Below, piece after piece: positions 13,617 to 55,808 of a stretch of DNA of 64,000 nucleotides (its first letter is position 1; each line of letters opens with the position of its first letter). The notes under the pieces are model-generated. The model had not been told where the DNA came from. It saw only the letters and a program-made list of their open reading frames with translations, and ran no database searches. The translations under genes were made by a program, and so were the position numbers. This stretch comes from Bradyrhizobium niftali (GTDB lineage Bacteria; Pseudomonadota; Alphaproteobacteria; Rhizobiales; Xanthobacteraceae), in NCBI RefSeq assembly GCF_004571025.1, contig NZ_SPQT01000014.1, forward strand, positions 124,001 through 188,000, read 5' to 3'.

Positions 13617-13688
13617 CCAGGCACGCATGCGTTGCCAGGCACGCATGCGTTGCCAGGCACGCATGCGTTGCCGGGCACGCATGCGCAT
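13617..13688. repeat. 18-bp tandem repeat, four units with GCATGC cores
   Basis: The unit CCAGGCACGCATGCGTTG is repeated exactly three times (13617, 13635, 13653). A fourth, altered copy runs 13671-13688. Each unit contains the 6-bp palindrome GCATGC. It lies between the RidA gene and the convergently placed end of the esterase gene, just before the latter's stop. Confidence 0.9.
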
Positions 13689-24290: not shown

Positions 24291-24378
24291 CGTAGCCCGG
24301 ATGGAGCGTAGCGCAATCCGGGAATCTGTCCTCCGGATGCGAAGACCCCGGATTACGCTACGCTCCATCCGGGCTACG
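24291..24378. repeat. Palindromic repeat with 31-bp arms (CGTAGCCCGGATGG)
   Basis: Arms at 24291-24321 and 24348-24378 are reverse complements with one mismatch. The element sits between the convergent pyrD and MATE genes and could form a strong stem in both transcripts. Confidence 0.88.
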
Positions 24379-26475: not shown

Positions 26476-26778
26476 TTAGCGGCGCGGCGCGCCGAAGACG
26501 CGCGACAGCAGCCAGATCGGGATCACGATGACCGCGCCGAGCAGGAAGTAGCGCCATAGCCAGTTGATGGTATCGAAGCCGAGATCCCACAGCCGCTGGA
26601 ACAGGAGGCGAATGCTGTGGATGATGTTCCAGGGATCGAAGCCGATCGCCGCCAGCACGACGCCGACCAGGATCGAGAGCAGGACCAGGCGAAATGCGAC
26701 CGCCAGCGGCGAGCCGCCGAGAAAGCGGTTCAGCCCGTCGCTGCGGCCGGCCGGCAAATCTCTGACGTCTTGGACCAT
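26476..26778 (-). CDS. DUF6460-like small membrane protein
   Basis: The 100-residue protein has a conserved opening (SDGLNRFLGGSP) and two membrane segments (about 31-50 and 73-94). Between them is FDPWNIIHSIRLLFQRLWDLGFD, and it ends VIPIWLLSRVFGAPRR. I recall this pattern as DUF6460, widespread in Bradyrhizobium-like bacteria with no known role. ATG 26778 has GAGGAG about seven bases upstream. Confidence 0.75.
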   Translation of the reverse strand: MVQDVRDLPAGRSDGLNRFLGGSPLAVAFRLVLLSILVGVVLAAIGFDPWNIIHSIRLLFQRLWDLGFDTINWLWRYFLLGAVIVIPIWLLSRVFGAPRR

Positions 26779-26892
26779 CTGGAAACTCCTCGGGGATTCG
26801 ACCCCCATTATACGGCACCGCGAGGCACATGGGGAACCCGCAACGGGGCGTCAATCGGCTTACGGGATTTTAATCCCGGATCGGGCCCGGGT

Positions 26893-28770
26893 TCACGCCT
26901 CCACTTCGACTGCTTCCGCTTTCAACATCTTTTCCAGCGTTTCCAGCCGGTCGGCCTCCCGCGGCGGCTTGTCCCAGCGTAGGCGGCTGATGCGGGGGAA
27001 GCGCATGGCGACGCCGGATTTGTGCCGCGGCGAGCGTTGCAGGCCTTCGAACGCGACCTCCAGCACCAGCCCCTTGTCAGCCTCGTGCACGACATGGCGT
27101 ACGGGGCCGAACTTTTCGGTGGTGTTGCGGCGGACGAAGCGGTCGATCTGCAAGAGCTCCTCGTCGGTGAAGCCGAAATAGGCCTTGCCGACCGGCACCA
27201 GCTCGTCGCCAGTCTCACCTTCGGTCCAGACGCCAAACGTGTAGTCGGAATAATAGGACGAGCGCTTGCCGTGGCCGCGCTGCGCATACATCAGCACGGC
27301 ATCGATGATGTGCGGGTCGCGCTTCCACTTCCACCACTGCCCCTTCGGCCGTCCGGGCAAATAAGGCGCATCGCGCCGCTTCAGCATCACGCCCTCGACG
27401 GCGTCCGCGTCCTCGCCGGCGCCTGCGCTTGCGGGGTCGGCGCGCGCGGCGGTCAGCGCCTCCCAGCTTGCGAAGGGCACGGTGGGCGACAGATCGATGC
27501 GGGGATCGCCAAGTCTCCCGATGAAGGTCTCAAGTCGCTCGCGCCGCTCCGCGAACGGCAATTCGCGCAAATCGTTCGCATCGTCGCCGAGCAAATCGTA
27601 GGCGCGCAGATGGATCGGAAATTCCTTGATCAGCTTCGGCGAGACGACCTTGCGGTTGAGCCTCTGCTGGAGAACGTTGAAGCTCTGCACGCGGCCCTCG
27701 CGCAGGATCAGAAGCTCGCCGTCGATCGCGCCCGGCAGGCGCAACGACGGCACCAGATCCGGAAAGCTCCCCGTGATGTCCTCGCCGGTGCGCGAATAGA
27801 GTCGCGCCGTGATGTGGCCGCGGTCGTCGCGGCCTGCCACCGCCTGCACGCGGATGCCGTCCCATTTCCATTCGGCGACGTAGTCGGCGGGGTCGAGCGC
27901 GGCGAAATCGCTGTCCTCGATCGCATGCGCGAGCATCACCGGGCGGAACGGCGCGGGATCGCGATTGACCGGCTTGTCGCTGCGGCCTTCCAGCCAGGCG
28001 AACAGGTCGAGATAGGGCGGCGCGGGCCCCGGCCAGATCAGCTCGACCTCATGCGGGTCCTTGTCGCCGAGCGCCGCCGCGGCGGTCTTCGCCAGCCGCG
28101 CGGAAATGCCGATGCGAAGCGCGCCCGTGACGAGCTTCAGCAGCGCCCAGCGTCCGGTCTCGTCGAGCTCGTCGAGCCAGCGTTCGAGCTGCTTCGGCAG
28201 CTCGGTCTTGCCGAGCGTGCGCAGCGTGGTGACGACTTCGGTGAGGGTCGGCGGCGGCGGGTTGTTGTGGTTGCTTGGGTGGAGCGCATCGCTGGCATCT
28301 CGCCCGCGGTACCCCCCTCCCTGACCCTCCCCCGCAAGGGGGGAGGGAACGGAGAGGCTCGTGCCTCCATCACTTTGGGATTCGCTATTAGCTGTTGTGC
28401 TCGCTGACAGCGCCGCGTTCCGCCGCGCTCCCTCCCCCCTTGCGGGGGAGGGTGGGGGAGAGGGGTGGCCCGGAAAAGATTCGACATTGTTTGCGCTACG
28501 TCTCGGCCACATCAGCGCCACCGTCTCCGAGAGATCGCCGACATAATCGTAGCTCAGTCCAAACAGCACCTCATCGGTGCGCGACGCGATCAGGTCGCGG
28601 ATCAGCGCCGGCTTGGCGTGCTTGAAGCTGAGCGCGCCGGTCAGTGCGGCCAGCGCATAGCCGCGGTCGGGATCGCCGACCTCGCGGAAATAGCCGGTGA
28701 TCAGCCGCAGCTTGTTGTTGCGGCCGGGCTCGTAGGCGAGACGGTCCAGAAGTTCGGCGAAGCGGTTCAT
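26893..28770 (-). CDS. ATP-dependent DNA ligase of the Lhr-Lig repair system, with internal repeat insertion
   Basis: The 625-residue protein matches the ligase that travels with the Lhr helicase, exonuclease and PdeM phosphoesterase in DNA damage response clusters. The N-terminal DNA-binding domain starts MNRFAELLDRLAYEPGRNN. The adenylated lysine is in EWKWDGIRVQ (Lys302), with later motifs EGVMLKRRDAPY and GQWWKWKRDP, then the OB domain. About residues 101-153 (SPPPSPARGEG ... SPLAGEGQGGG) are encoded by an intergenic-type palindromic repeat (28310-28468) read in frame. This lengthens a linker that is short in relatives I recall. The start overlaps the exonuclease stop (ATGA). Function seems intact, since all ligase motifs remain. 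Confidence 0.93.
   Translation of the reverse strand: MNRFAELLDRLAYEPGRNNKLRLITGYFREVGDPDRGYALAALTGALSFKHAKPALIRDLIASRTDEVLFGLSYDYVGDLSETVALMWPRRSANNVESFPGHPSPPPSPARGEGARRNAALSASTTANSESQSDGGTSLSVPSPLAGEGQGGGYRGRDASDALHPSNHNNPPPPTLTEVVTTLRTLGKTELPKQLERWLDELDETGRWALLKLVTGALRIGISARLAKTAAAALGDKDPHEVELIWPGPAPPYLDLFAWLEGRSDKPVNRDPAPFRPVMLAHAIEDSDFAALDPADYVAEWKWDGIRVQAVAGRDDRGHITARLYSRTGEDITGSFPDLVPSLRLPGAIDGELLILREGRVQSFNVLQQRLNRKVVSPKLIKEFPIHLRAYDLLGDDANDLRELPFAERRERLETFIGRLGDPRIDLSPTVPFASWEALTAARADPASAGAGEDADAVEGVMLKRRDAPYLPGRPKGQWWKWKRDPHIIDAVLMYAQRGHGKRSSYYSDYTFGVWTEGETGDELVPVGKAYFGFTDEELLQIDRFVRRNTTEKFGPVRHVVHEADKGLVLEVAFEGLQRSPRHKSGVAMRFPRISRLRWDKPPREADRLETLEKMLKAEAVEVEA
28310..28468. repeat. 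Palindromic repeat element inserted in frame in the ligase gene
   Basis: The two ends (28311-28348 and 28429-28467) are inverted copies that share a 25-bp identical core containing CCCCCGCAAGGGGGGAGGGA or its complement. The middle of about 80 bp is unrelated. The same ends flank the intergenic element at 35872-36009. Read on the minus strand it has no stop and keeps the ligase frame. Confidence 0.9.
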
Positions 28771-29813
28771 GCTTCGGCCTCGTCTTGAAGCGGCGTCTCG
28801 CTCTCCTCCTCGTCGCCATAGCCGACCAGATCGAGTGGCTGCGCCCGCAGACCGAGCGATTTGCACCAATGCACCAGCGCATCTTCCTGGCCGTGCGTGA
28901 CCCAGATCTCGCCGGCGCCGGTGGCGGCGATCGTGGTGGTGAGGCCGTCCCAGTCGGCGTGGTCGGAAATCACCAGCGGCAATTCGACGCCGCGCTGCCG
29001 CGCCCGGGCGCGCACGCGCATCCATCCTGAGGCGAAGGCGGTGACCGGATCGGGAAAGCGGCGCGTCCAGAGATCGGATGTCGCCGACGGCGGCGCCAGC
29101 GTGATGGTGCCGGCGAGCGCCGCCTTCTTCACGCCCAGCACCGGCCTGAGCTCGCCGAGCGCGATCCCGCGGCTCTGATAGTACTCGGTGATCTTCTCCA
29201 TGGCGCCATGCAGATAGATCGGCGCGTCATAGCCGGCCTGTCGCAGCAGCGCGATCACGCGCTGCGCCTTGCCGAGCGAATAGGCGCCGACGAGATGCGC
29301 GCGCTCGGGAAACAGCGCGACCGAGGCGAGCAGCTTCTTCACCTCATCGGCCGCATCGCCATGCCGGAACACCGGCAGGCCGAACGTCGCCTCGGTGATG
29401 AAGACGTCGCAGGGGACGAGCTCGAACGGCGTGCAGGTCGGATCTCGCGCGTCCTTGTAGTCGCCGGAGGCGACGATGCAGGTGTCCTTGCACGTTACCG
29501 CGATCTGGGCAGAGCCCAGCACATGGCCGGCCGGGTGGAATTTCACGCTGACATCGCCGAGCCGGATCTCCTCGCCATAGCGGATCGCCTGCGTCGAGCC
29601 GGCAAAATTCTCGCCATAGCGCAGCCGCATCATGTCCAGCGTTTCCTGCGTCGCCAGCACCGCGCCATGGCCGGCGCGGGCATGGTCGGAATGGCCGTGG
29701 GTGATCACGGCCCGCTCGACCGGGCGCACGGGATCGATGTGGAAGCCGCCGGGCTTGCAGCACAGGCCGGCAGCAGCTGGCAACAGGATGTCTTGCGGAC
29801 GCATGTGCACCAT
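28767..29813 (-). CDS. Ligase-associated DNA damage response exonuclease (MBL/beta-CASP-like)
   Basis: The 348-residue protein resembles the SNM1/CPSF-73-like nucleases encoded with Lhr and Lig. It has HGHSDHARAGHG (about 39-50) as the two-metal motif. HPAGHVLGSAQI and VASGDYKDARDPTCTPFE supply further ligands, then ITEATFG, VGAYSLGKAQR and a late VISDHADWDGL. Studied relatives resect or process DNA ends. Its stop overlaps the ligase start by four bases, so nuclease and ligase are coupled. The first start (29813) is given; ATG 29804 is equally possible because neither has a clear ribosome site. Confidence 0.92.
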   Translation of the reverse strand: MVHMRPQDILLPAAAGLCCKPGGFHIDPVRPVERAVITHGHSDHARAGHGAVLATQETLDMMRLRYGENFAGSTQAIRYGEEIRLGDVSVKFHPAGHVLGSAQIAVTCKDTCIVASGDYKDARDPTCTPFELVPCDVFITEATFGLPVFRHGDAADEVKKLLASVALFPERAHLVGAYSLGKAQRVIALLRQAGYDAPIYLHGAMEKITEYYQSRGIALGELRPVLGVKKAALAGTITLAPPSATSDLWTRRFPDPVTAFASGWMRVRARARQRGVELPLVISDHADWDGLTTTIAATGAGEIWVTHGQEDALVHWCKSLGLRAQPLDLVGYGDEEESETPLQDEAEA

Positions 29814-29840
29814 ATAGTCAGCGGACGCCTCAAATTAAGT

Positions 29841-29934
29841 CGTCATGCGCGGGCTTGACCCGCGCATCCATCGCCCTAAAGAGTTCCATTTTGATGGATT
29901 GCCGGGTCAAGCCCGGCAATGACGAACCTCGGTT
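29841..29934. repeat. Palindromic repeat (CGTCATGCGCGGG ... GGCAATGACGA)
   Basis: Two GGGCTTGACCCG-type hairpins (CGCGGGCTTGACCCGCG near 29848, CCGGGTCAAGCCCGG near 29902) lie head to head, with CATCCATC/GATGGATTG between them. It separates the divergent exonuclease and methyltransferase genes. Its last bases contain an ATG (29919) in the methyltransferase frame. Confidence 0.8.
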
Positions 29935-29939
29935 TCCCA

Positions 29940-30866
29940 ATGCCCCTGCGCCTTTTCCACTCTTCCGGCGATCTCATGGCCGACCGCCGCTTCGAGTTCG
30001 CGCGCGATCTCCAGCTCAAGGGCGATCTGCCTGCCGCCGCCGACCTGCTGGAGCAGGCGATCGAGCTCGCACCCAATTTTGCTTCCGCCTGGTTCACGCT
30101 CGGCGAGATTCGTCAGCAGCTCGGCGAGCGCGACAAGGCCATCGCGGCCTTTCGTAAATCGCGGGAGTGCGATCCGGAGGATCAGCATGGTGCCGGCCTG
30201 CATCTGATACGGCTCGGCGATGTGCAGATGACGGAGATGCCCAAGGCCTATGTGCAGGCCCTGTTCGACCAGTACGCGCCGCGGTTCGAGCACGTGCTGA
30301 TCAACGATCTCGGCTATCGCGCCCCGGCGCTGATCTTCAAGGCGGTGCTGGCCGCGCGCGTCGCCGCGAAGAAGCCGGCTTTCTTCAAGCGCACCATCGA
30401 TCTCGGTTGCGGCACCGGGCTTGCGGCCGCCGCCTTCGCCAGGCAGGTCGATCATTTCATCGGCATCGACCTGTCGTCCGGCATGATCAGGGAGGCGCGC
30501 GCGAGTGGTCTCTACGCCGAGCTCGAGGTCGCCGACATGATCGAGGGCCTGCGTGGCAAGGGCGACGCGAGCGCGAACCTCGTCGTGGCCGCGGATGCGT
30601 TCGTCTACCTCTCCGATCTCGCGCCGGTGCTGACCGAAGCCGTGCGCGTGCTTGCATCGGGCGGCGTGCTTGCCTTCACGCTGGAGACGCATGACGGCAG
30701 CGGCATCGTTCTCGGCGAAGGCCTGCGCTATGCCCATTCGGCGGAATATGTGCGCGACGCCATCGCGCAAGCCGGACTGAAGCTCCTCACCCTGGAGCCG
30801 GCCTCGCCGCGCAACGAGAACAACGAGCCGGTGCGCGGCCTCGTCGTCGTCGCCGAGAAAACTTGA
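29940..30866 (+). CDS. TPR-containing class I methyltransferase
   Basis: The 308-residue protein starts with one or two TPR-like helices (about 13-85: LQLKGDLPAAADLLEQAIELAPNFASAWFTLGEI). A SAM-dependent methyltransferase domain follows, with motif I TIDLGCGTGLAAAAF (about 149-163), FIGIDLSSGMI and LVVAADAFVYLSDL. No substrate is evident; similar proteins are annotated as predicted methyltransferases with TPR. Starts at 29940 and 29976 are both possible, and ATG 29919 comes from the neighbouring repeat. It lies between the two halves of the Lhr-Lig locus, but I have no evidence that it belongs to it. Confidence 0.85.
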   Translation: MPLRLFHSSGDLMADRRFEFARDLQLKGDLPAAADLLEQAIELAPNFASAWFTLGEIRQQLGERDKAIAAFRKSRECDPEDQHGAGLHLIRLGDVQMTEMPKAYVQALFDQYAPRFEHVLINDLGYRAPALIFKAVLAARVAAKKPAFFKRTIDLGCGTGLAAAAFARQVDHFIGIDLSSGMIREARASGLYAELEVADMIEGLRGKGDASANLVVAADAFVYLSDLAPVLTEAVRVLASGGVLAFTLETHDGSGIVLGEGLRYAHSAEYVRDAIAQAGLKLLTLEPASPRNENNEPVRGLVVVAEKT

Positions 30867-30981
30867 GTCTAGGCGCTACCGCCCTGCGATTTGAGCGTCA
30901 TTGCGTCGCAAAGCTGCGACTTCCCACTTGCGAGCCGAGCTGCGTTGCCAGCACAATGCGCGCGCTAGGGAGAAACAAATA

Positions 30982-32211
30982 ATGACCAAGAATCCATCGC
31001 GGCGCGATTTCAGCGCCGCCGCGCTCGCCACCATCGCCGCATCCACCTTGCCCGCGCCGTATGTCTGGGCCGCGGAGAAGAAATACGATGCCGGTGCCAG
31101 CGACACCGAGATCAAGATCGGGCAGACCGTGCCGCATTCCGGCCCCGGCTCGCTCTACGGCGTGCTCGGGCGCGTCGGGGAAGCCTATTTCCAGATGCTG
31201 AACGAGAAGGGCGGCATCAACGGCCGCAAGGTCAAGTTCCTGACCATGGACGATGCCTACAGCGCGCCGAAATGCGTCGAGGCGACGCGGCGCCTGGTCG
31301 AGCAGGAGGAGGTGCTCGCGCTGTACGGCTCGCTCGGCACCGCGCCGCAGACCGCCGTGCACAAATACCTGAACTCGAAGGGCGTGCCGCAGCTGCTGCT
31401 CAACACCGGCGCGTCGAAGTGGAACAACCCGAAAGAGTTCAAATGGACGATGGCGGGCCTGCCGCTCTATCCGACCGAGGCGCGCATCCTGGCGCGGCAC
31501 GTCCTCAGCGTGAAGCCGAACGCCAAGGTCGGCATTCTCTACCAGAACGACGATTTCGGCCGCGACTTCCTCGGTCCCTTCAAGAAGGTGCTGGCGGATG
31601 CCGGCGGCACTGCGCAGGTGATCATGGAGCAGACCTACGATCTGACCGATCCGACCGTCGACTCCCAGCTCATCAATCTCTCGAAATCGGGCGCCGACGT
31701 CTTCTACAACATCTCGACCGGCAAGGCGTCGTCGCAGTCGATCCGCAAGGTGGCCGAGCTCGGCTGGAAGCCGCTGCAGCTGCTGTCGGCCGGCTCGACC
31801 GGGAAGTCCATCCTCAGTGCGGCCGGCCTCGATAACGCCGCCGGGATCGTCGCGATCCGCTATTCCAAGGATGCCGGGCCCGGCCCCTGGGAAAATGACA
31901 AGGATGTGGTCGCATTCGATACGCTGCGCAAGAATTACCTGCCGAACATCGATCCCGACAACACCATCGCCTATGCCGGTTATGGTCAGGCGGTGACCAT
32001 GGGCGAGATTCTGCGCCGCTGCGGCGACGAGCTCACGCGCGAGAACGTGCTGAAGCAGGCCGCGAACCTCAACGGCTTCCACTCGCCGTTCTTCCTCGAC
32101 GGCGTCGACTACAACTACACGCCCAACGACTACACCCCAATGAAGACGTTGTTCATCTCGACGTTCGACGGCAAGGACTGGCGGGTCTCCGACAAGCCGG
32201 TGACGGAGTAG
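30982..32211 (+). CDS. Branched-chain amino acid-type ABC substrate-binding protein
   Basis: The 409-residue protein has a twin-arginine-like signal (SRRDFSAAALATIAAS, then APYVWA) and a type I periplasmic binding fold of the LivJ/family 6 kind. Features are IKIGQTVPHSGPGSLYG, LNEKGGINGRKVKFL, VGILYQNDDFGRDFL and ISTGKASSQSIRKVAELG. These proteins bind amino acids, amides or aromatic acids. No Liv permease or ATPase is adjacent, so the partner is elsewhere. AGGGAGAA precedes the ATG. Confidence 0.92.
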   Translation: MTKNPSRRDFSAAALATIAASTLPAPYVWAAEKKYDAGASDTEIKIGQTVPHSGPGSLYGVLGRVGEAYFQMLNEKGGINGRKVKFLTMDDAYSAPKCVEATRRLVEQEEVLALYGSLGTAPQTAVHKYLNSKGVPQLLLNTGASKWNNPKEFKWTMAGLPLYPTEARILARHVLSVKPNAKVGILYQNDDFGRDFLGPFKKVLADAGGTAQVIMEQTYDLTDPTVDSQLINLSKSGADVFYNISTGKASSQSIRKVAELGWKPLQLLSAGSTGKSILSAAGLDNAAGIVAIRYSKDAGPGPWENDKDVVAFDTLRKNYLPNIDPDNTIAYAGYGQAVTMGEILRRCGDELTRENVLKQAANLNGFHSPFFLDGVDYNYTPNDYTPMKTLFISTFDGKDWRVSDKPVTE

Positions 32212-32233
32212 GGGGAGGTCTCACGAGAGGCCC

Positions 32234-32324
32234 TAGGGTGGGCAAAGGCGCACTTGCGCCGTGCCCACCATCTCTCCAGGTATCCTTGCGCGAAGGGTGG
32301 GCACGCTGCGCTTTGCCCACCCTA
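32234..32324. repeat. Palindromic repeat, TAGGGTGGGCAAAG ... CTTTGCCCACCCTA
   Basis: The ends TAGGGTGGGCAAAGGCGC and GCGCTTTGCCCACCCTA are inverted copies, with an inner GGCGCA-CTT-GCGCC hairpin and GTGCCCACCATCTCTCC. The same family is at 56403-56501, and a looser variant at 48943-49051. Confidence 0.88.
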
Positions 32325-32384
32325 CGAGACTGCGGAAGCCCACACCCCTCGACGAACCCGCCCCCACGGCTTACCTGTGATGCC

Positions 32385-34961
32385 GTGCCGCCCCGCATCC
32401 TCAAAATCCCGGCCGAGCCGGCCACGCTGCTGCCCGACCGCTTCCAGGCATGGTTCGCGGGGCGCGGCTGGTCGCCGCGCGCGCATCAATTGGCGCTGCT
32501 GGAGAAGGCGCGCGAGGACGCCAGCGCGCTGCTGATCGCGCCGACCGGCGCGGGCAAGACGCTGGCGGGATTTCTGCCGACGCTGGTGGAGCTTTCGACG
32601 CCGGCGATCGAACGCGATGCCAGCGCCAGGCAAAGCCTCGTCTCCACCGGCCGTTCCGTGCAGCGCGCCGGCGGCCTCCACACCCTCTACATCTCGCCGC
32701 TCAAGGCGCTCGCCGTCGACATCGCACGCAATCTCGAGCGTCCCATCGCCGAGATGGGTCTGCCGATCAAGGTCGAGACGCGCACCGGCGACACGCCGGT
32801 GTCGCGGCGTCAGCGACAGCGGCGCTATCCGCCGGATGTCTTGCTGACGACGCCCGAGCAGCTTGCGCTATTGCTCTCTTCCGACGACGCGCCGTTCCTG
32901 TTCTCCTCCTTGAAACGCATCGTGCTGGACGAGCTGCATGCGCTGGTGACGTCCAAGCGCGGCGATCTGCTGTCGCTCGGGCTGGCCCGGCTGTGGCGGC
33001 TCGCGCCGCAGATACGCGCGATCGGATTATCGGCGACCGTGGCCGAGCCGGATCAGCTCGCGCGCTTCCTGGTGCCGCAGCCTGATGGCAAGGAAGTGGC
33101 CGCCGACATCGTGATCGCCGGCGGCGCCGCGCCGCCGCTGGTCGAGATGCTCGATACGCGCGAGCGGCTACCCTGGGCCGGTCACGGCGCGCGTCACGCA
33201 CTCGCCGAGGTCTATGAGCTGATCAAGCAGAACAAGACCACGCTGGTCTTCGTCAACACCCGCAGCCAGGCCGAGATGTTGTTCCAGGATCTCTGGCGCA
33301 TGAACGACGACGGGCTCGCGATCGCGCTGCATCACGGCTCGCTCGACGTCGCCCAGCGCCGCAAGGTCGAGGACGCGATGTCGGCGGGACGCTTGCGCGG
33401 CGTGGTCTGCACCTCCTCGCTCGACCTCGGCGTCGACTGGGGGGACGTCGATCTCGTGGTCAATATCGGCGCGCCGAAGGGCTCCTCGCGCCTGATGCAG
33501 CGCATCGGCCGCGCCAATCACCGCCTCGACGAGGCCTCGCGCGCGGTGCTGGTGCCGGCCAACCGCTTCGAGGTGCTGGAGTGCCGCGCCGCCATCGACG
33601 CCATCGCCGAGAACGCGCAGGACACCCCGCCGTTGCGCACCGGTGCGCTCGACGTGCTGGCCCAGCACGTGCTCGGCCGTGCCTGCGGCGAGCCATTCTT
33701 CAGCGATGACCTCTATGACGAGGTACGCACCGCCGCGCCCTATGCGGGCCTCGCGCGCGGCGATTTCGACGACGTCGTCGATTTCGTCGCGACCGGCGGC
33801 TATGCGCTGAAGACCTACGAGCGCTTCGCCCGCATCAAGCAGGACAAGCAGGGGCGCTGGCGTGTCGCCAATCCAAAGGTGCGGCAGAGCTATCGTCTCA
33901 ATGTCGGCACCATCGTCGAGGAGCCGATGCTCAAGGTGCGGCTGGTGCGCTCCCGCTCCACCGGCAGCGGTTCGACCGGCGCGATCGCGCGCGGCGGCCG
34001 CGTGCTCGGCGAAATCGAGGAATATTTCATCGAGGGGCTGACCGCCGGCGACACCTTCGTGTTCGGCGGCGAGGTCGTGCGCTACGAGGCCCTGGCCGAA
34101 GATCAGGTCTACGTCTCTCGCGCCAACGACAAGGATCCGAAGGTGCCGTCCTATATGGGCGGCAAATTTCCGCTCTCGACCTATCTTGCCGAACGTGTGC
34201 GCCGCCTGCTCGACGACAGGCGCGCGTGGAACGGTCTGCCGGAGCAGGTGCGCGACTGGCTGTCGCTCCAGAAGGACGTCTCGCGCGTGCCGGGTGTCCG
34301 CGAGCTCCTAGTCGAAACCTTTCCGCGCGGCAGCAAGCATTACCTCATCTGCTATCCCTTCGAGGGGCGGCTGGCGCATCAGACGCTCGGCATGCTGCTG
34401 ACGCGGCGGCTGGAACGCGGCCGCGCCCGGCCGCTCGGCTTCGTCGCCAATGAATATGCGGTGGCGATCTGGGGCCTGGGCGATGCCTCCTTCATGATCC
34501 GCAACGGTGAGCTCGATCTCGACGCGCTGTTCAACCCCGACATGCTGGGGGACGATCTCGAAGCGTGGCTGGCCGAATCCGCGCTGATGAAGCGCACGTT
34601 TCGTAATTGTGCCTTGATCAGCGGCCTGATCGAGCGTCGCTTCACCAGCGAGGACAAGAGCCGCCGCCAGGTGCTGTTCTCGACCGATCTGGTCTACGAC
34701 GTGCTGCGTAAGCACCAGGCCGACCACGTCCTGCTGCGCGCCGCCCGCGCCGATGCCGCCACCGGCCTGCTCGACCTGCGCCGTCTCGGCGGCATGCTGG
34801 CCCGCATCCAGGGCCGCATCACGCACCGGGAACTCGATCACGTCTCCCCGCTCGCCGTCCCCGTGATGCTGGAAATCGGCCGCGAGTCAGTTTATGGCGA
34901 AGCTGCAGACGAGTTGTTGGCCGAGGCCGCCGATGAGCTGGTCAAAGAGGCGATGTCGTAG
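32385..34961 (+). CDS. Ligase-associated DNA damage response DEXH helicase (Lhr-Core type)
   Basis: The 858-residue superfamily 2 helicase has Walker A APTGAGKT (52-59), LYISPLKALAVDIARNLERP, a DELH box (182-185) and LSATVAEP. The second RecA domain has LVFVNTRSQAE and SSLDLGVDWGDVDLVVNIGAPKGSSRLMQRIGRANHR-type residues, followed by the Lhr winged-helix and beta-barrel parts. Relatives are 3'-to-5' DNA translocases tied to the ligase, exonuclease and PdeM. GTG 32385 is chosen because upstream sequence belongs to the repeat and because MPPRILK resembles the usual opening; no clear ribosome site supports it. It is followed by PdeM. Confidence 0.92.
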   Translation: MPPRILKIPAEPATLLPDRFQAWFAGRGWSPRAHQLALLEKAREDASALLIAPTGAGKTLAGFLPTLVELSTPAIERDASARQSLVSTGRSVQRAGGLHTLYISPLKALAVDIARNLERPIAEMGLPIKVETRTGDTPVSRRQRQRRYPPDVLLTTPEQLALLLSSDDAPFLFSSLKRIVLDELHALVTSKRGDLLSLGLARLWRLAPQIRAIGLSATVAEPDQLARFLVPQPDGKEVAADIVIAGGAAPPLVEMLDTRERLPWAGHGARHALAEVYELIKQNKTTLVFVNTRSQAEMLFQDLWRMNDDGLAIALHHGSLDVAQRRKVEDAMSAGRLRGVVCTSSLDLGVDWGDVDLVVNIGAPKGSSRLMQRIGRANHRLDEASRAVLVPANRFEVLECRAAIDAIAENAQDTPPLRTGALDVLAQHVLGRACGEPFFSDDLYDEVRTAAPYAGLARGDFDDVVDFVATGGYALKTYERFARIKQDKQGRWRVANPKVRQSYRLNVGTIVEEPMLKVRLVRSRSTGSGSTGAIARGGRVLGEIEEYFIEGLTAGDTFVFGGEVVRYEALAEDQVYVSRANDKDPKVPSYMGGKFPLSTYLAERVRRLLDDRRAWNGLPEQVRDWLSLQKDVSRVPGVRELLVETFPRGSKHYLICYPFEGRLAHQTLGMLLTRRLERGRARPLGFVANEYAVAIWGLGDASFMIRNGELDLDALFNPDMLGDDLEAWLAESALMKRTFRNCALISGLIERRFTSEDKSRRQVLFSTDLVYDVLRKHQADHVLLRAARADAATGLLDLRRLGGMLARIQGRITHRELDHVSPLAVPVMLEIGRESVYGEAADELLAEAADELVKEAMS

Positions 34962-35006
34962 ACTGTTCGCGCGAATGAATTTTTGGGGCACGACTCTTTC
35001 CACATC

Positions 35007-35126
35007 GTCATGCCCGGGCTTGACCCGGGCATCCACGTCTTTGTCTCCGTGGCAAGCGCGTGGATGGCCGGGCATAGGCGAGCGGAAGCGACGCCGTTCT
35101 TCGAACGGCTACGCCCGGCCATGACG
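35007..35126. repeat. Palindromic repeat (CGTCATGCCCGGG ... CGGCCATGACG)
   Basis: The left part has CCCGGGCTTGACCCGGGCAT and the right part has CGTTCTTCGAACG and GCCCGGCCATGACG, with CGTGGATG/CATCCACG in between. It fills the gap between the helicase and PdeM genes. Its end supplies the PdeM ATG (35121). Confidence 0.8.
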
Positions 35127-35819
35127 GAGCAGGCGGCACTATCGATTACTTCAACGCTTGCGCTGGATATTGCCGGTGCATCGTTCGCCGCCGATCTCTC
35201 CGGCGCCCTGTTCTGGGAAGCGCAGCGCCTGCTCGTCGTCTCCGACCTGCATCTGGAAAAGGGCTCGAGCTTCGCCACCCGCGGCGTGCTGCTGCCGCCT
35301 TACGATACCATCGCGACGCTCGGCCGGCTTGCTGCTGTCATCTCCCGCCATGATCCGCGCACCGTCATCGCGCTCGGCGACAGTTTTCACGATCGCACCG
35401 CGCATGAGCGCCTCTCCGCGGAGGATCGCGACGCCGTCGCCGTACTCCAATCCGGCCGCGACTGGATCTGGATCTCGGGTAATCACGATCCGATGCTGCC
35501 GCGCGATCTCGGCGGCACCATCGCCGACGAAGTCGCGATCGGCCCGATCACCTTCCGCCACGAGCCGACCGGCGCGTGCGGCGAGATCGCCGGCCATCTC
35601 CATCCCAAGGCCCGCGTCTCCGCGCGCGGCCGTTCGATGGAGCGTCGCTGCTTCGCCAGCGACGGGTTGCGCGCCGTGATGCCCGCCTTCGGCGCCTATG
35701 CCGGCGGCCTCAGCATCCGCGATGCGGCGTTTGCAAAGATCTTCCCGGAGAACGGTTTTGTCGCCCATCTCCTCGGCGACCGCCGCGTCCACGCCATCGC
35801 CGCGTCGCGGTGTTATTGA
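35121..35819 (+). CDS. pdeM: Ligase-associated DNA damage response endonuclease PdeM
   Basis: The 232-residue calcineurin-like metallophosphoesterase has the expected order of metal motifs: SDLHLEKG (41-48), GDSFHD (86-91), GNHDP (120-124), FRHEP and GHLHPK (158-163). It is the fourth member of the Lhr-Lig set and is thought to cut DNA with manganese. The ATG falls inside the end of the preceding repeat; no better start is seen, and the product from this ATG has the usual length. It is likely transcribed with the helicase gene. Confidence 0.93.
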   Translation: MTEQAALSITSTLALDIAGASFAADLSGALFWEAQRLLVVSDLHLEKGSSFATRGVLLPPYDTIATLGRLAAVISRHDPRTVIALGDSFHDRTAHERLSAEDRDAVAVLQSGRDWIWISGNHDPMLPRDLGGTIADEVAIGPITFRHEPTGACGEIAGHLHPKARVSARGRSMERRCFASDGLRAVMPAFGAYAGGLSIRDAAFAKIFPENGFVAHLLGDRRVHAIAASRCY

Positions 35820-35871
35820 GGACACGCTCGTCCCTTGTGAGTTGAACACTCTCGCGACAGGCACACTGCAC

Positions 35872-36009
35872 TCCCTCCCCCCTTGCGGGGGAGGGCAGGG
35901 AGGGGGGTAGCTCAGGAAAAGGTGTGTGTTTGGCGGTCGCACAAACGTCTATCGAGAGAGTCCCCGTGTGGACCCCCCTCCCTAGCCCTCCCCCGCAAGG
36001 GGGGAGGGA
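35872..36009. repeat. Palindromic repeat with 37-bp ends, same family as the ligase insertion
   Basis: The ends 35872-35908 and 35972-36009 are inverted copies rich in C and G runs (CCCCCCTTGCGGGGGAGGG). The middle of about 63 bp is unrelated to the middle of the ligase copy. It lies between the convergent PdeM and LysR genes. Confidence 0.88.
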
Positions 36010-36033
36010 ACGCACCTTCAGCGTCGCTGCAGT

Positions 36034-36897
36034 TCAGGCCGCCTTCGCCTGCACGTTATCGCAGAACTCCGCGAGCCGATCGGCGAGCCGCAGCGTCGCC
36101 GGGCTCGCATCCGGTGACGCCATCAGCGCCATTTCGGTCTTGTTGATCGGCGCAAAGCCGTCCTTTGCTGTCAGCACGCGATGATCGGCCTGGATCGACA
36201 TTTCGGACAGGATGCTCAGCCCCATGCCGGCGGCGACCGCGGCCTGGATGCCGGCGAGGCTCGATGACGTGTAGGCCATGTGCCAGGTGCGGCCGGCGCT
36301 CTCCAGCGCGTGGATGGCGCCGGCGCGATAGAGGCAGCCCAGCGGAAAGCCGATCAGCGGCACCGACGGCGTGCCCGCGTCGATCGGATGGCTCTTGCTG
36401 GTGACCCAGTGCACCCGCTCCGGCCACACCGCGATGGCGCCCTTCTCGCCGGCCTCGCGCTTGTAAAGCGCCAGATCAAGTTCGCCGCGTTCCAGATCGC
36501 GGGCGAGGTTCTTGCTCTGGTCGGCGCGGACGTCGAGCCGCAGGCCGGGATGCGAGCGCGAGAATGTTGCCAGCAATTTCGCCAGGCGATAGGCCGCAAA
36601 ATCCTCGGGAATGCCGAGCCGGATCGCGCCTTCGCTGTCGGGCTGGCTCAGCACGTCGCGCGCCTCCTCCGCAAGCGAGAGCAGCCGCCGCGCATAGGAC
36701 AGCAGCCGCTCGCCGGCCTCGGTGGGACGCACGTCCTTGCCGTCGCGGTGCAGGAGCACCTGGCCGACATCCTCCTCCAGCCGCTTGATCTGCTGGCTGA
36801 CGGTCGACTGCGTGCGGTGGACGCGCTCGCCGGCGCGGGTGAAGCCGCCGGCCTCCACGACCGAGACGAAGCTGCGCAGAAGCTCGAGATCGAGCAT
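36034..36897 (-). CDS. LysR-family transcriptional regulator
   Basis: The 287-residue protein has an N-terminal LysR winged helix (LDLELLRSFVSVVEAGGFTRAGERVHRTQSTVSQQIKRLE, about 2-41). The effector domain contains IRLGIPEDFAAYRLAKLLATF. ATG 36897 has GGAGG five bases upstream. It diverges from the EamA transporter at 36996 and probably controls it, as LysR regulators often do; a near-palindrome in the gap supports this. The effector is not known. Confidence 0.92.
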   Translation of the reverse strand: MLDLELLRSFVSVVEAGGFTRAGERVHRTQSTVSQQIKRLEEDVGQVLLHRDGKDVRPTEAGERLLSYARRLLSLAEEARDVLSQPDSEGAIRLGIPEDFAAYRLAKLLATFSRSHPGLRLDVRADQSKNLARDLERGELDLALYKREAGEKGAIAVWPERVHWVTSKSHPIDAGTPSVPLIGFPLGCLYRAGAIHALESAGRTWHMAYTSSSLAGIQAAVAAGMGLSILSEMSIQADHRVLTAKDGFAPINKTEMALMASPDASPATLRLADRLAEFCDNVQAKAA

Positions 36898-40517: not shown

Positions 40518-40704
40518 TGAACGACGCACCGGCGAGACGGATCGACGAGCGCGGAATGCTCGCGGGAAGATCGGAACGATTGCCGCGTCCCTCAATAGCC
40601 GAATTCGCCGGCGGAGGGATCAGGAATCTTGGGCGTTGCGAATGGGCTAAGAGGGATCAGATCACTGCTTCGCTGCGAGCGGAGGATTCCGCCACATTCT
40701 CCGC

Positions 40705-40810
40705 CGTCATGCCCCGGCTTGACCGGGGCATCCAGTACGCCGCAGCTTCTCCGCATCCAACCGGCGTCTTTGGAATACTCGGTCGCCCGGTCAAGCCGGG
40801 CGCCGACAAG
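40705..40810. repeat. Palindromic repeat (CGTCATGCCCCGG ... GGTCAAGCCGGGCG)
   Basis: The left hairpin is CCCCGGCTTGACCGGGG, followed by CATCCAGTACGCCG. The right side has GGAATACTCGGTCGCCCGGTCAAGCCGGGCG. The architecture matches the elements at 38706 and 44498. Confidence 0.8.
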
Positions 40811-44261: not shown

Positions 44262-44495
44262 GACTCTGTCCGGTTCCGACTCCGGCGCCCCACCCGGCAC
44301 CTCCAGCCTCCCCACGCGTGCCGGTTGTAAAGACAATCGGATTTGGCGCGGGTCGTCTGCCTCGAAAACCGACTTTTTCCTGTTACGGTAAATAACGGGT
44401 TAAGGAACGCGTTGCCGATGTCTTAAAGTTGGGCGAGGGGAACCCGGGGGGTCCCCTCGTGGTGGCTGCGCGACCTGCTGCCCCTACACATTCCG
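44262..44495. other. Upstream region of the PodJ-like gene
   Basis: This 234-bp gap before the repeat contains no credible ORF. AT content rises around 44340-44420 (TTTTTCCTGTTACGGTAAATAACGGGTTAAGG), a plausible promoter zone for the PodJ-like gene. No operator or RNA gene is recognised. Confidence 0.4.
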
Positions 44496-44497
44496 TC

Positions 44498-44596
44498 GTC
44501 ATCGCCCGCGAAGGCGGGCGATCCAGTACGCCGCGGCAGCTCGATTCCAGCCGCGCGGCCTCGGAGTACTGGATGCCCCGCCTTCGCGGGGCATGA
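44498..44596. repeat. Palindromic repeat (GTCATCGCCCGCG ... GGGGCATGAC)
   Basis: The left hairpin is TCGCCCGC-GAAG-GCGGGCGA, followed by TCCAGTACGCCGCGG. The right side is CGGAGTACTGGATGCCCCGCC-TTCG-CGGGGCATGAC. The words CCAGTAC and GTACTGG pair across the middle. It is the best preserved copy of this family in the window. Confidence 0.85.
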
Positions 44597-44641
44597 CACC
44601 GGTGGTGTGGTGACGGTCTCCTGTAACGTCGGGCCAGCCCC

Positions 44642-55728: not shown

Positions 55729-55808
55729 CGTCATTGCGAGCGTAGCGAAGCAATCCAGGCTGCCGCCGCGGAAGGATTCTCGATTGCTTCGCTGCGCTCG
55801 CAATGACG
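55729..55808. repeat. Palindromic repeat (CGTCATTGCGAGCG ... CGCTCGCAATGACG)
   Basis: The ends CGTCATTGCGAGCGTAGCGAAGCAATC and GATTGCTTCGCTGCGCTCGCAATGACG-type words pair across the element with small gaps. It is a shorter relative of the element at 19035-19156, with the same GAAGCAATCCAG word. Confidence 0.85.

Follow-up and report, generated by a model that had tools for sequence, protein, structure and literature searches.

How does a dispersed palindromic repeat come to lie within the reading frame of a DNA-repair enzyme without breaking it, and what becomes of it there? The question is posed by a stretch of 64,000 nucleotides from Bradyrhizobium niftali (contig NZ_SPQT01000014.1, positions 124,001 to 188,000; this whole stretch is called the window below), in which the gene for an ATP-dependent DNA ligase harbors such an element. 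We propose, with a probability of about 0.83, that a mobile palindrome resembling the repetitive extragenic palindromic (REP) sequences landed in a disordered loop of the ligase and is translated with it, and that this loop is recurrently occupied by such repeats and evolves as DNA. The features in question, in window coordinates, are:

26893..28770, minus strand: ATP-dependent DNA ligase, 625 amino acids, of the ligase-associated (cisplatin) damage-response type; stop-free translation, TIGR04120 at 803.0 bits against a cut-off of 400
28246..28503, minus strand: variable linker spanning residues 90-175; part of the N-terminal DNA-binding domain and predicted to be disordered
28297..28480, minus strand: palindromic element of two inverted arms and a spacer, in frame, about residues 97-158; recognized by its inverted repeat, RNA fold and multiple copies
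28425..28480, minus strand: arm 1 in the ligase sense (PSPPPSPARGEG) with outer tail
28297..28353, minus strand: arm 2 in the ligase sense (VPSPLAGEGQGGGYRG) with outer tail
28354..28424, minus strand: spacer separating the arms; codon-position signature absent in 32 equal-length alleles (measured over 28351-28422)
35868..36013, no strand assigned: tails-in copy of the element, in the intergenic region that separates pdeM from a convergent LysR-type gene

The element measures 184 nucleotides and forms an inverted repeat (28297-28372 and 28405-28480) with 76-nucleotide arms that are 74% complementary and lie 32 nucleotides apart. Folded as RNA it yields one long stem of -127.9 kcal/mol; 200 dinucleotide shuffles gave -83.6 +/- 4.8 (z = -9.3), and not one folded equally well. 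No Rfam family was found within 26500-36500 at the gathering threshold. With positions 28301-28480 (180 nucleotides) as the query, at least 93 high-scoring segment pairs (HSPs) were recovered at E<=0.01 from the 9.79-Mb genome of the organism itself (40 of the 53 candidates scored), the dispersed copies being roughly 100-190 bp long. One of these, at 35868-36013, to which a preliminary description of this DNA had already matched the repeat in the ligase frame, is 80% identical to it directly over 54 nucleotides and 86-88% identical as the reverse complement over 36-42 nucleotides. The ligase copy is tails-out whereas the intergenic copy is tails-in, and thus their arrangements are not the same; tails-out copies of the window's type (class A below) do occur outside the ligase in other genomes. 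G027, a near relative of the window's genome, has two such tails-out elements about 1.6 kb apart (L234), without a long spanning frame. Among the 22 of about 36 listed element places inspected in the organism's own genome, the ligase copy is the only one in a recognized gene, and 20 fetched copies gave one candidate spanning frame (L111), which lacks a Pfam match. One aligned ligase spacer, that of L154, which we take to be a ligase allele of the elkanii-like clade, shares a stretch with some dispersed copies (L235-L237 and L243).

The linker that houses the element comprises 86 residues in the window's ligase and 14 in close relatives without it; the net gain is therefore about 72 residues, and not the 53 (residues 101-153) of the preliminary description, which had also drawn the element too short (28310-28468) and placed it at the junction of the DNA-binding domain with the catalytic core. 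It lies instead inside the N-terminal DNA-binding domain: positions 104-168 of PF04675 (DNA_ligase_A_N) align to residues 169-226, past the element, in a weak match of 19.8 bits that falls below the cut-off of 24.6, and the adenylation domain (PF01068) starts only at residue 279. In an AlphaFold2 model based on 34 sequences (mean predicted local distance difference test score, pLDDT, of 75.6) residues 92-170 have a pLDDT<50 and are flanked by helices at residues 80-87 and 176-185. A profile search matched solved ligases, presumably from archaea and eukaryotes, most of which aligned only past the insert. The claim that the insert brings neither a stop nor a change of frame is borne out by the stop-free translation, and a translation start after the element, which the same description had considered, is unlikely since 33 of residues 1-89, together with K302, D304 and G305 (which we take to be the KxDG motif), are invariant in 34 aligned ligases, the window's included.

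A ligase match at E<=1e-100 was obtained in 260 of the 265 genomes of the genus and in 249 of the 251 good ones; G096 and G166, both single-contig genomes that are 99% complete, have no ligase of the TIGR04120 type at this threshold. We examined 210 ligase loci, of which eight lack a parsable linker; the 202 that could be read include 16 duplicates, leaving 186 distinct linkers, 137 of them long and 49 short. By class these are 95 A (the window's type), 14 B, 8 C, 18 other and 49 short, with a scar (L045) and a single-arm remnant (L212) as single alleles apart. The short linkers resemble one another (KAxLxxHNNPPPPT), and the close relatives L052, L055 and L067 (95-97% protein identity in the best segment) have a 14-residue linker free of the repeat, so that the segment is absent from aligned close relatives as the preliminary description had anticipated. 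Its concern that distant genera might share the same residues holds insofar as look-alike linker residues do occur there (e.g. PSPLAGEGRGGG in L081), but these come from other repeats, several of them in another arrangement. Further repeat-like inserts were found at the same linker in other Hyphomicrobiales and in one metagenome-assembled genome of the Rhodobacteraceae. Where a single insertion had been described, we observe a linker occupied by several repeat families, at least three (A, B and C) in number, much like the loops of two other repair genes discussed below. The B and C alleles printed have the hairpins outside and the tails inside (tails-in), the opposite of A. Slippage between the flanking AACAAC runs was rejected as the origin of the short alleles: it predicts about 10 residues, and the short alleles of Bradyrhizobium mostly have 13-14.

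On the gene tree (FastTree, one gene) the classes A, B, C and short require at least 46 changes, and the distinction of long and short 41. The families also differ in their distribution in the genomes: four genomes whose ligase has a C insert yielded 14, 15, 6 and 84 family C HSPs, and three genomes without that insert yielded none; family B is more widespread, being present in all eight genomes tested. In G158 the C copy in the ligase is 89% identical over 151 nucleotides to a copy in uvrB.

The reading frame is kept throughout this turnover. Of the 137 long linkers, 133 are stop-free and divisible by three in length, at 46 different lengths, and the spacing of class A arms is a multiple of three in 63 of 65 ligases as against 7 of 20 dispersed copies. 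Divergence at codon positions 1/2/3, computed on 32 A alleles of equal length, has the usual third-position excess in the catalytic part (0.05/0.04/0.27) and a strong one over the 93 codons that precede the linker (0.06/0.03/0.22); there is none in the spacer (0.41/0.32/0.36) or the left tail (0.37/0.29/0.38), and the arms are conserved at every codon position (0.09/0.05/0.06 and 0.13/0.19/0.13). Taken together, the frame statistics and the codon-position pattern argue that the frame is kept, that most of the peptide is free to vary and that the arms are conserved as DNA. Judged from the sequences, then, it appears to be the DNA rather than the peptide that is conserved in the linker.

The two arms of an insert, moreover, tend to match each other. 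Among the 95 A alleles, 23 were unparsed and eight unscored; in 60 of the 64 scored alleles the arms agree at a diagnostic site (G/C or A/T), and independent pairs on the tree split 8:0 (p 0.008). In the consensus fold the corresponding pair 61-170 is GC in 15, AU in 13 and AC in two alleles (30 of the 32 of equal length), a two-sided change is seen in only two of 51 pairs, and the arm similarity within loci was reached by two of 2000 permutations (28 alleles). Dispersed arms comprise 58 of the G-type and one of the A-type, a count slightly biased because they were found with a G-type query; the A-type pairs of the ligases were therefore not simply taken from the copies seen. Copying of one arm onto the other is a possible reading of these few sites. 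Extra arm hairpins are present in both arms of three A alleles (L139, L142 and L145); such paired loop inserts were dropped as support for arm copying, as nine alleles have a one-sided insert.

A mechanism along the following lines would accommodate what we observed, namely a repeat within the frame, a frame that is kept, empty sites, several families at one site, a peptide devoid of conservation and arms that agree at one variable pair. The element, composed of two inverted hairpin units and a spacer and dispersed in Bradyrhizobium genomes, would have landed in a loop of the DNA-binding domain and would be translated as additional, structureless protein. Its survival there may be owed to GC-rich arms that read through without stop codons and to a loop that accommodates nearly any length in frame. 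In the loops of the ligase, the helicase and UvrB, different families would repeatedly insert, be lost or be exchanged, and the arms might stay matched through arm-to-arm copying, perhaps by template switching within the palindrome. Selection at the protein level would preserve only the frame and the freedom from stops, with the function of the enzyme presumably unimpaired.

Several observations weigh against this proposal. No match to PF01797 (Y1_Tnp) was found in the organism's own genome (144 contigs, small gaps possible), with five of 14 control genomes positive. The linker classes were assigned by pattern and by eye, and the gene tree derives from a single gene and has some weak branches. 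The case for arm copying draws mainly on one variable base pair; nine A alleles have an extra hairpin in one arm only (L031, and L041, L044, L143, L165, L171, L173, L178 and L179), and arms could also have come to match through conversion by other copies or because another variant re-inserted.

The alternative that fares best is that class switching reflects allelic exchange, in which interspecies homologous recombination swaps long and short alleles and few true insertions take place; we consider this possible, though clearly less likely than the recurrent insertion proposed above. Both allele types are widespread, the sisters L003 and L137 have different A alleles, and the sister pair L008/L229 has eight differences in 60 nucleotides on one side of the linker against 2.7% gene-wide, as would be expected of an imported flank. 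Nearest neighbors defined by the flanking 180 nucleotides are of the same class at 0.55, with 0.46 by chance and 0.65 for the rest of the gene. Exchange is, however, at odds with the weak association between linker class and the 15-nucleotide bins within 120 nucleotides of the linker (0.005-0.044 in 16 bins, a single one of which exceeds the gene mean of 0.036). Of 16 sister pairs differing in class (12 with support >=86), 15 are without excess flank divergence at p<0.05, a result to which very short tracts would still conform; the comparison was made position by position on unaligned sequences, its 60-nucleotide flanks afford low power, and pairs with indels say little on account of their inflated expectations (gene-wide 0.37 in L083/L188 and L035/L069). 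The view that long-tract recombination alone drives class switching was set aside, as the nearest-neighbor, site-association and sister-pair tests gave it no support, although some exchange of the ligase locus between species could have taken place.

We regard it as improbable that one ancestral insertion, diverged into different-looking inserts and lost in some lineages, accounts for all alleles without any hot spot. The A alleles do share their tails (ESFPG ... GRD) and arrangement across the genus, and many of them therefore represent one old insertion that was kept or spread, rather than separate insertions; the likeness of the short linkers and the design common to all families, a hairpin plus a G-tail, point the same way. 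Yet divergence from a single insertion sits poorly with the opposite order of the arms in the printed B and C inserts, with the failure to find family C in the three genomes lacking a C insert, and with the 89% identity of the ligase and uvrB copies in G158. Less probable still is a domesticated insert, i.e. a proline- and glycine-rich peptide that modulates the ligase and is under selection as a protein. The insert is indeed kept in many species, inserts are found in three repair proteins, and the right tail (residues 156-175; 0.18/0.15/0.39) has some third-position excess, so that the linker is not wholly free; against this, the spacer is without codon-position bias, the arms are equally conserved at all codon positions, the peptides differ between families, and sister species have short alleles. 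That the insert is an annotation artefact, with translation starting after the element or the gene being a pseudogene, can hardly be right: four of the 137 long linkers do not keep the frame (L204, L211, L094 and L085, the last with a run of N) and the ligase match is interrupted by stops in G002, G128, G213 and G256, but the invariant residues and the strong third-position excess ahead of the linker contradict it. The first two of these linkers, L204 (G213) and L211 (G121), are A-type inserts with a length of 2 modulo 3; either their frame is truly broken or G/C runs were misread in sequencing.

Recurrent occupation of a tolerant loop by mobile palindromes, as we propose for the ligase, also has counterparts in other repair genes. 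In 28 genomes, which were picked by ligase class and not at random, repeat-like inserts are present at one place in uvrB in 7 of 27 genomes (eight counting L269, a single unit) and in the linker between motifs I and Ia of the helicase in 11 of 27 (L334 being a doubtful addition), with all 27 helicase linkers in frame. A search pattern for hairpins, which recovers all 14 B inserts, 7 of 8 C and 93 of 95 A, detected units in the ligase linker of 23 of the 28 genomes, in 8 of 27 uvrB frames and in 11 of 25 helicase frames (those of L325 and L326 near the N-terminus, outside the linker); it detected none in 112 control loci with long flexible parts (28 each of infB, rne and dnaX, and 28 of 30 fliK). 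Of these controls fliK is the fairer one, the other three genes being essential. Among 40 family C places examined in G225 (40 of 75 candidates scored), three lie in frame in recognized genes, all of them repair genes, namely the ligase, uvrB (L246) and the helicase (L279, where the insert splits TIGR04121), and two of these belong to one four-gene system; 21 of the 26 other spanning frames were scanned with Pfam, and the two with a domain have it start past the element. Seven frames, all without a domain, span copies of family B in G250, where 21 copies other than that in the ligase were examined (of 43 HSPs). A second repeat-like hairpin unit is present near the C-terminal end of the uvrB frame in L251 (G158, residue 965) and L256 (G133, residue 998).

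The restriction of the in-gene copies of G225 to repair genes and the absence of units from the control loci could be cited against chance, and we offer, as a doubtful suggestion, that the repeat families home into DNA-end-processing and excision-repair genes (ligase, helicase and UvrB) beyond what tolerance of the loops explains. The repair machinery might contact the hairpins, or inserts that alter repair might help the repeats to persist. A related idea, in which SOS-induced transcription at the time of movement makes the repair genes a target, was rejected: the alphaproteobacterial LexA box is GTTC-N7-GTTC, which has no match in the window against 1.4 expected. A search of the part of the open-access literature covered found nothing on this system.

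The damage-response system to which the ligase belongs is complete in the window, its four genes lying near each other and all scoring above the cut-off. Its other members are:

28767..29813, minus strand: ligase-associated DNA exonuclease, the upstream partner, overlapping the ligase by 4 nucleotides; TIGR04122 at 480.3 bits against a cut-off of 325
32238..34961, plus strand: ligase-associated DEXH helicase; TIGR04121 at 1106 bits against a cut-off of 850
34983..35819, plus strand: ligase-associated endonuclease PdeM; TIGR04123 at 224.7 bits against a cut-off of 150, from residue 62

The window's own helicase has a motif I-Ia linker of 26 amino acids without a repeat. The true start of pdeM is probably downstream of the annotated start of the open frame, since the family match begins only at residue 62; the early part of that frame (34983-35170) contains a CGTC-like repeat at 35005-35035. 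Other small palindromic repeats lie at 29840-29925, 40704-40734, 44493-44602 and 55729-55808; several of the small palindromes start with CGTCAT and resemble the CGTC repeats described for Bradyrhizobium (PMC3733652). An inverted repeat at 24291-24378, with 32-nucleotide arms that are 97% complementary (CGTAGCCCGGATGGAGCG...), resembles a GTAG-type REP pair, and at 13617-13685 an 18-nucleotide unit (CCAGGCACGCATGCGTTG) is repeated in tandem in about four nearly perfect copies.

In-frame palindromes in Rickettsia and REPs in repair genes (PMC3733652) are already known; what is new here is that several families recurrently occupy the same loops of three repair genes, a finding accompanied by controls, frame statistics, codon-position data and the presence of empty sites. 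This lends comparative, controlled support to the older remark on repeats in DNA-repair genes (PMC3733652). It further indicates that a gene can gain protein sequence from selfish DNA and stay intact, and provides an example of a coding segment conserved as DNA and hardly as protein. Since empty sites, different families at one and the same position and genome contents specific to a family can all be found among close relatives, the hot-spot question can be put to the test in Bradyrhizobium, which are culturable bacteria and harmless symbionts.

Among known systems, REPINs (REP doublets forming hairpins) consist of two inverted REPs around a spacer, and the present element likewise has two inverted units with a short spacer; unlike the REPINs mobilized by REP-associated tyrosine transposases (RAYTs), it resides in a genome in which no RAYT-type Y1 transposase was found, and on this count it does not belong with them. 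The enterobacterial bacterial interspersed mosaic elements (BIMEs) are mosaics of palindromic units, and as in these both relative orders (tails-in and tails-out) occur here, with the difference that the present element lies within a gene.

Closer in their choice of site are the REPs of the GTAG and CGTC superfamilies, which Di Nocera et al. 2013 reported (PMC3733652) from repair genes including uvrB of R. conorii and a DNA ligase of O. terrae, with recB of two Xanthomonas hit at about the same site. Paired inverted units and insertion in repair genes are common to both. Those superfamilies are marked by an unpaired GTAG or CGTC where the hairpin begins to pair; the arms here seem to have no such clear tag, GGGGGGTAG being present in the tail of some copies and not at the foot of the inner hairpin. 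In the accessible text of that paper we came upon neither this element nor the ligase-associated system, and, that paper aside, no report of repeats in this type of ligase was found in the part of the open-access literature searched.

The likeness to the Rickettsia palindromic elements (RPEs), which the preliminary description had drawn, holds well for what we found, a dispersed palindrome in frame in a conserved and apparently intact ligase. In-frame palindrome insertions are known from Rickettsia (PMC3767692 and PMC10969869); the former describes RPEs as palindromic repeats of about 100-150 bp, some of which lie in open reading frames without breaking them, at solvent-exposed places. In both cases a multi-copy palindrome, here of 184 bp, is found also in genes with the frame unbroken, and the encoded segment is here predicted to be disordered. 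As for several unrelated genes of one genome being hit, a mark of RPEs, the only copy in a recognized gene among the places inspected in the organism's own genome is that in the ligase, and three genes are hit in G225. We liken the element to RPEs by design and behavior, not by sequence homology, and suggest that it would work in a similar manner. According to the same source (PMC3767692), orthologues may have different RPE groups close together, and for RPE-4, -6 and -7 its authors favored one common origin without excluding hot spots; in Bradyrhizobium, family C, present only in the genomes with a C insert among the seven tested, argues for a true hot spot.
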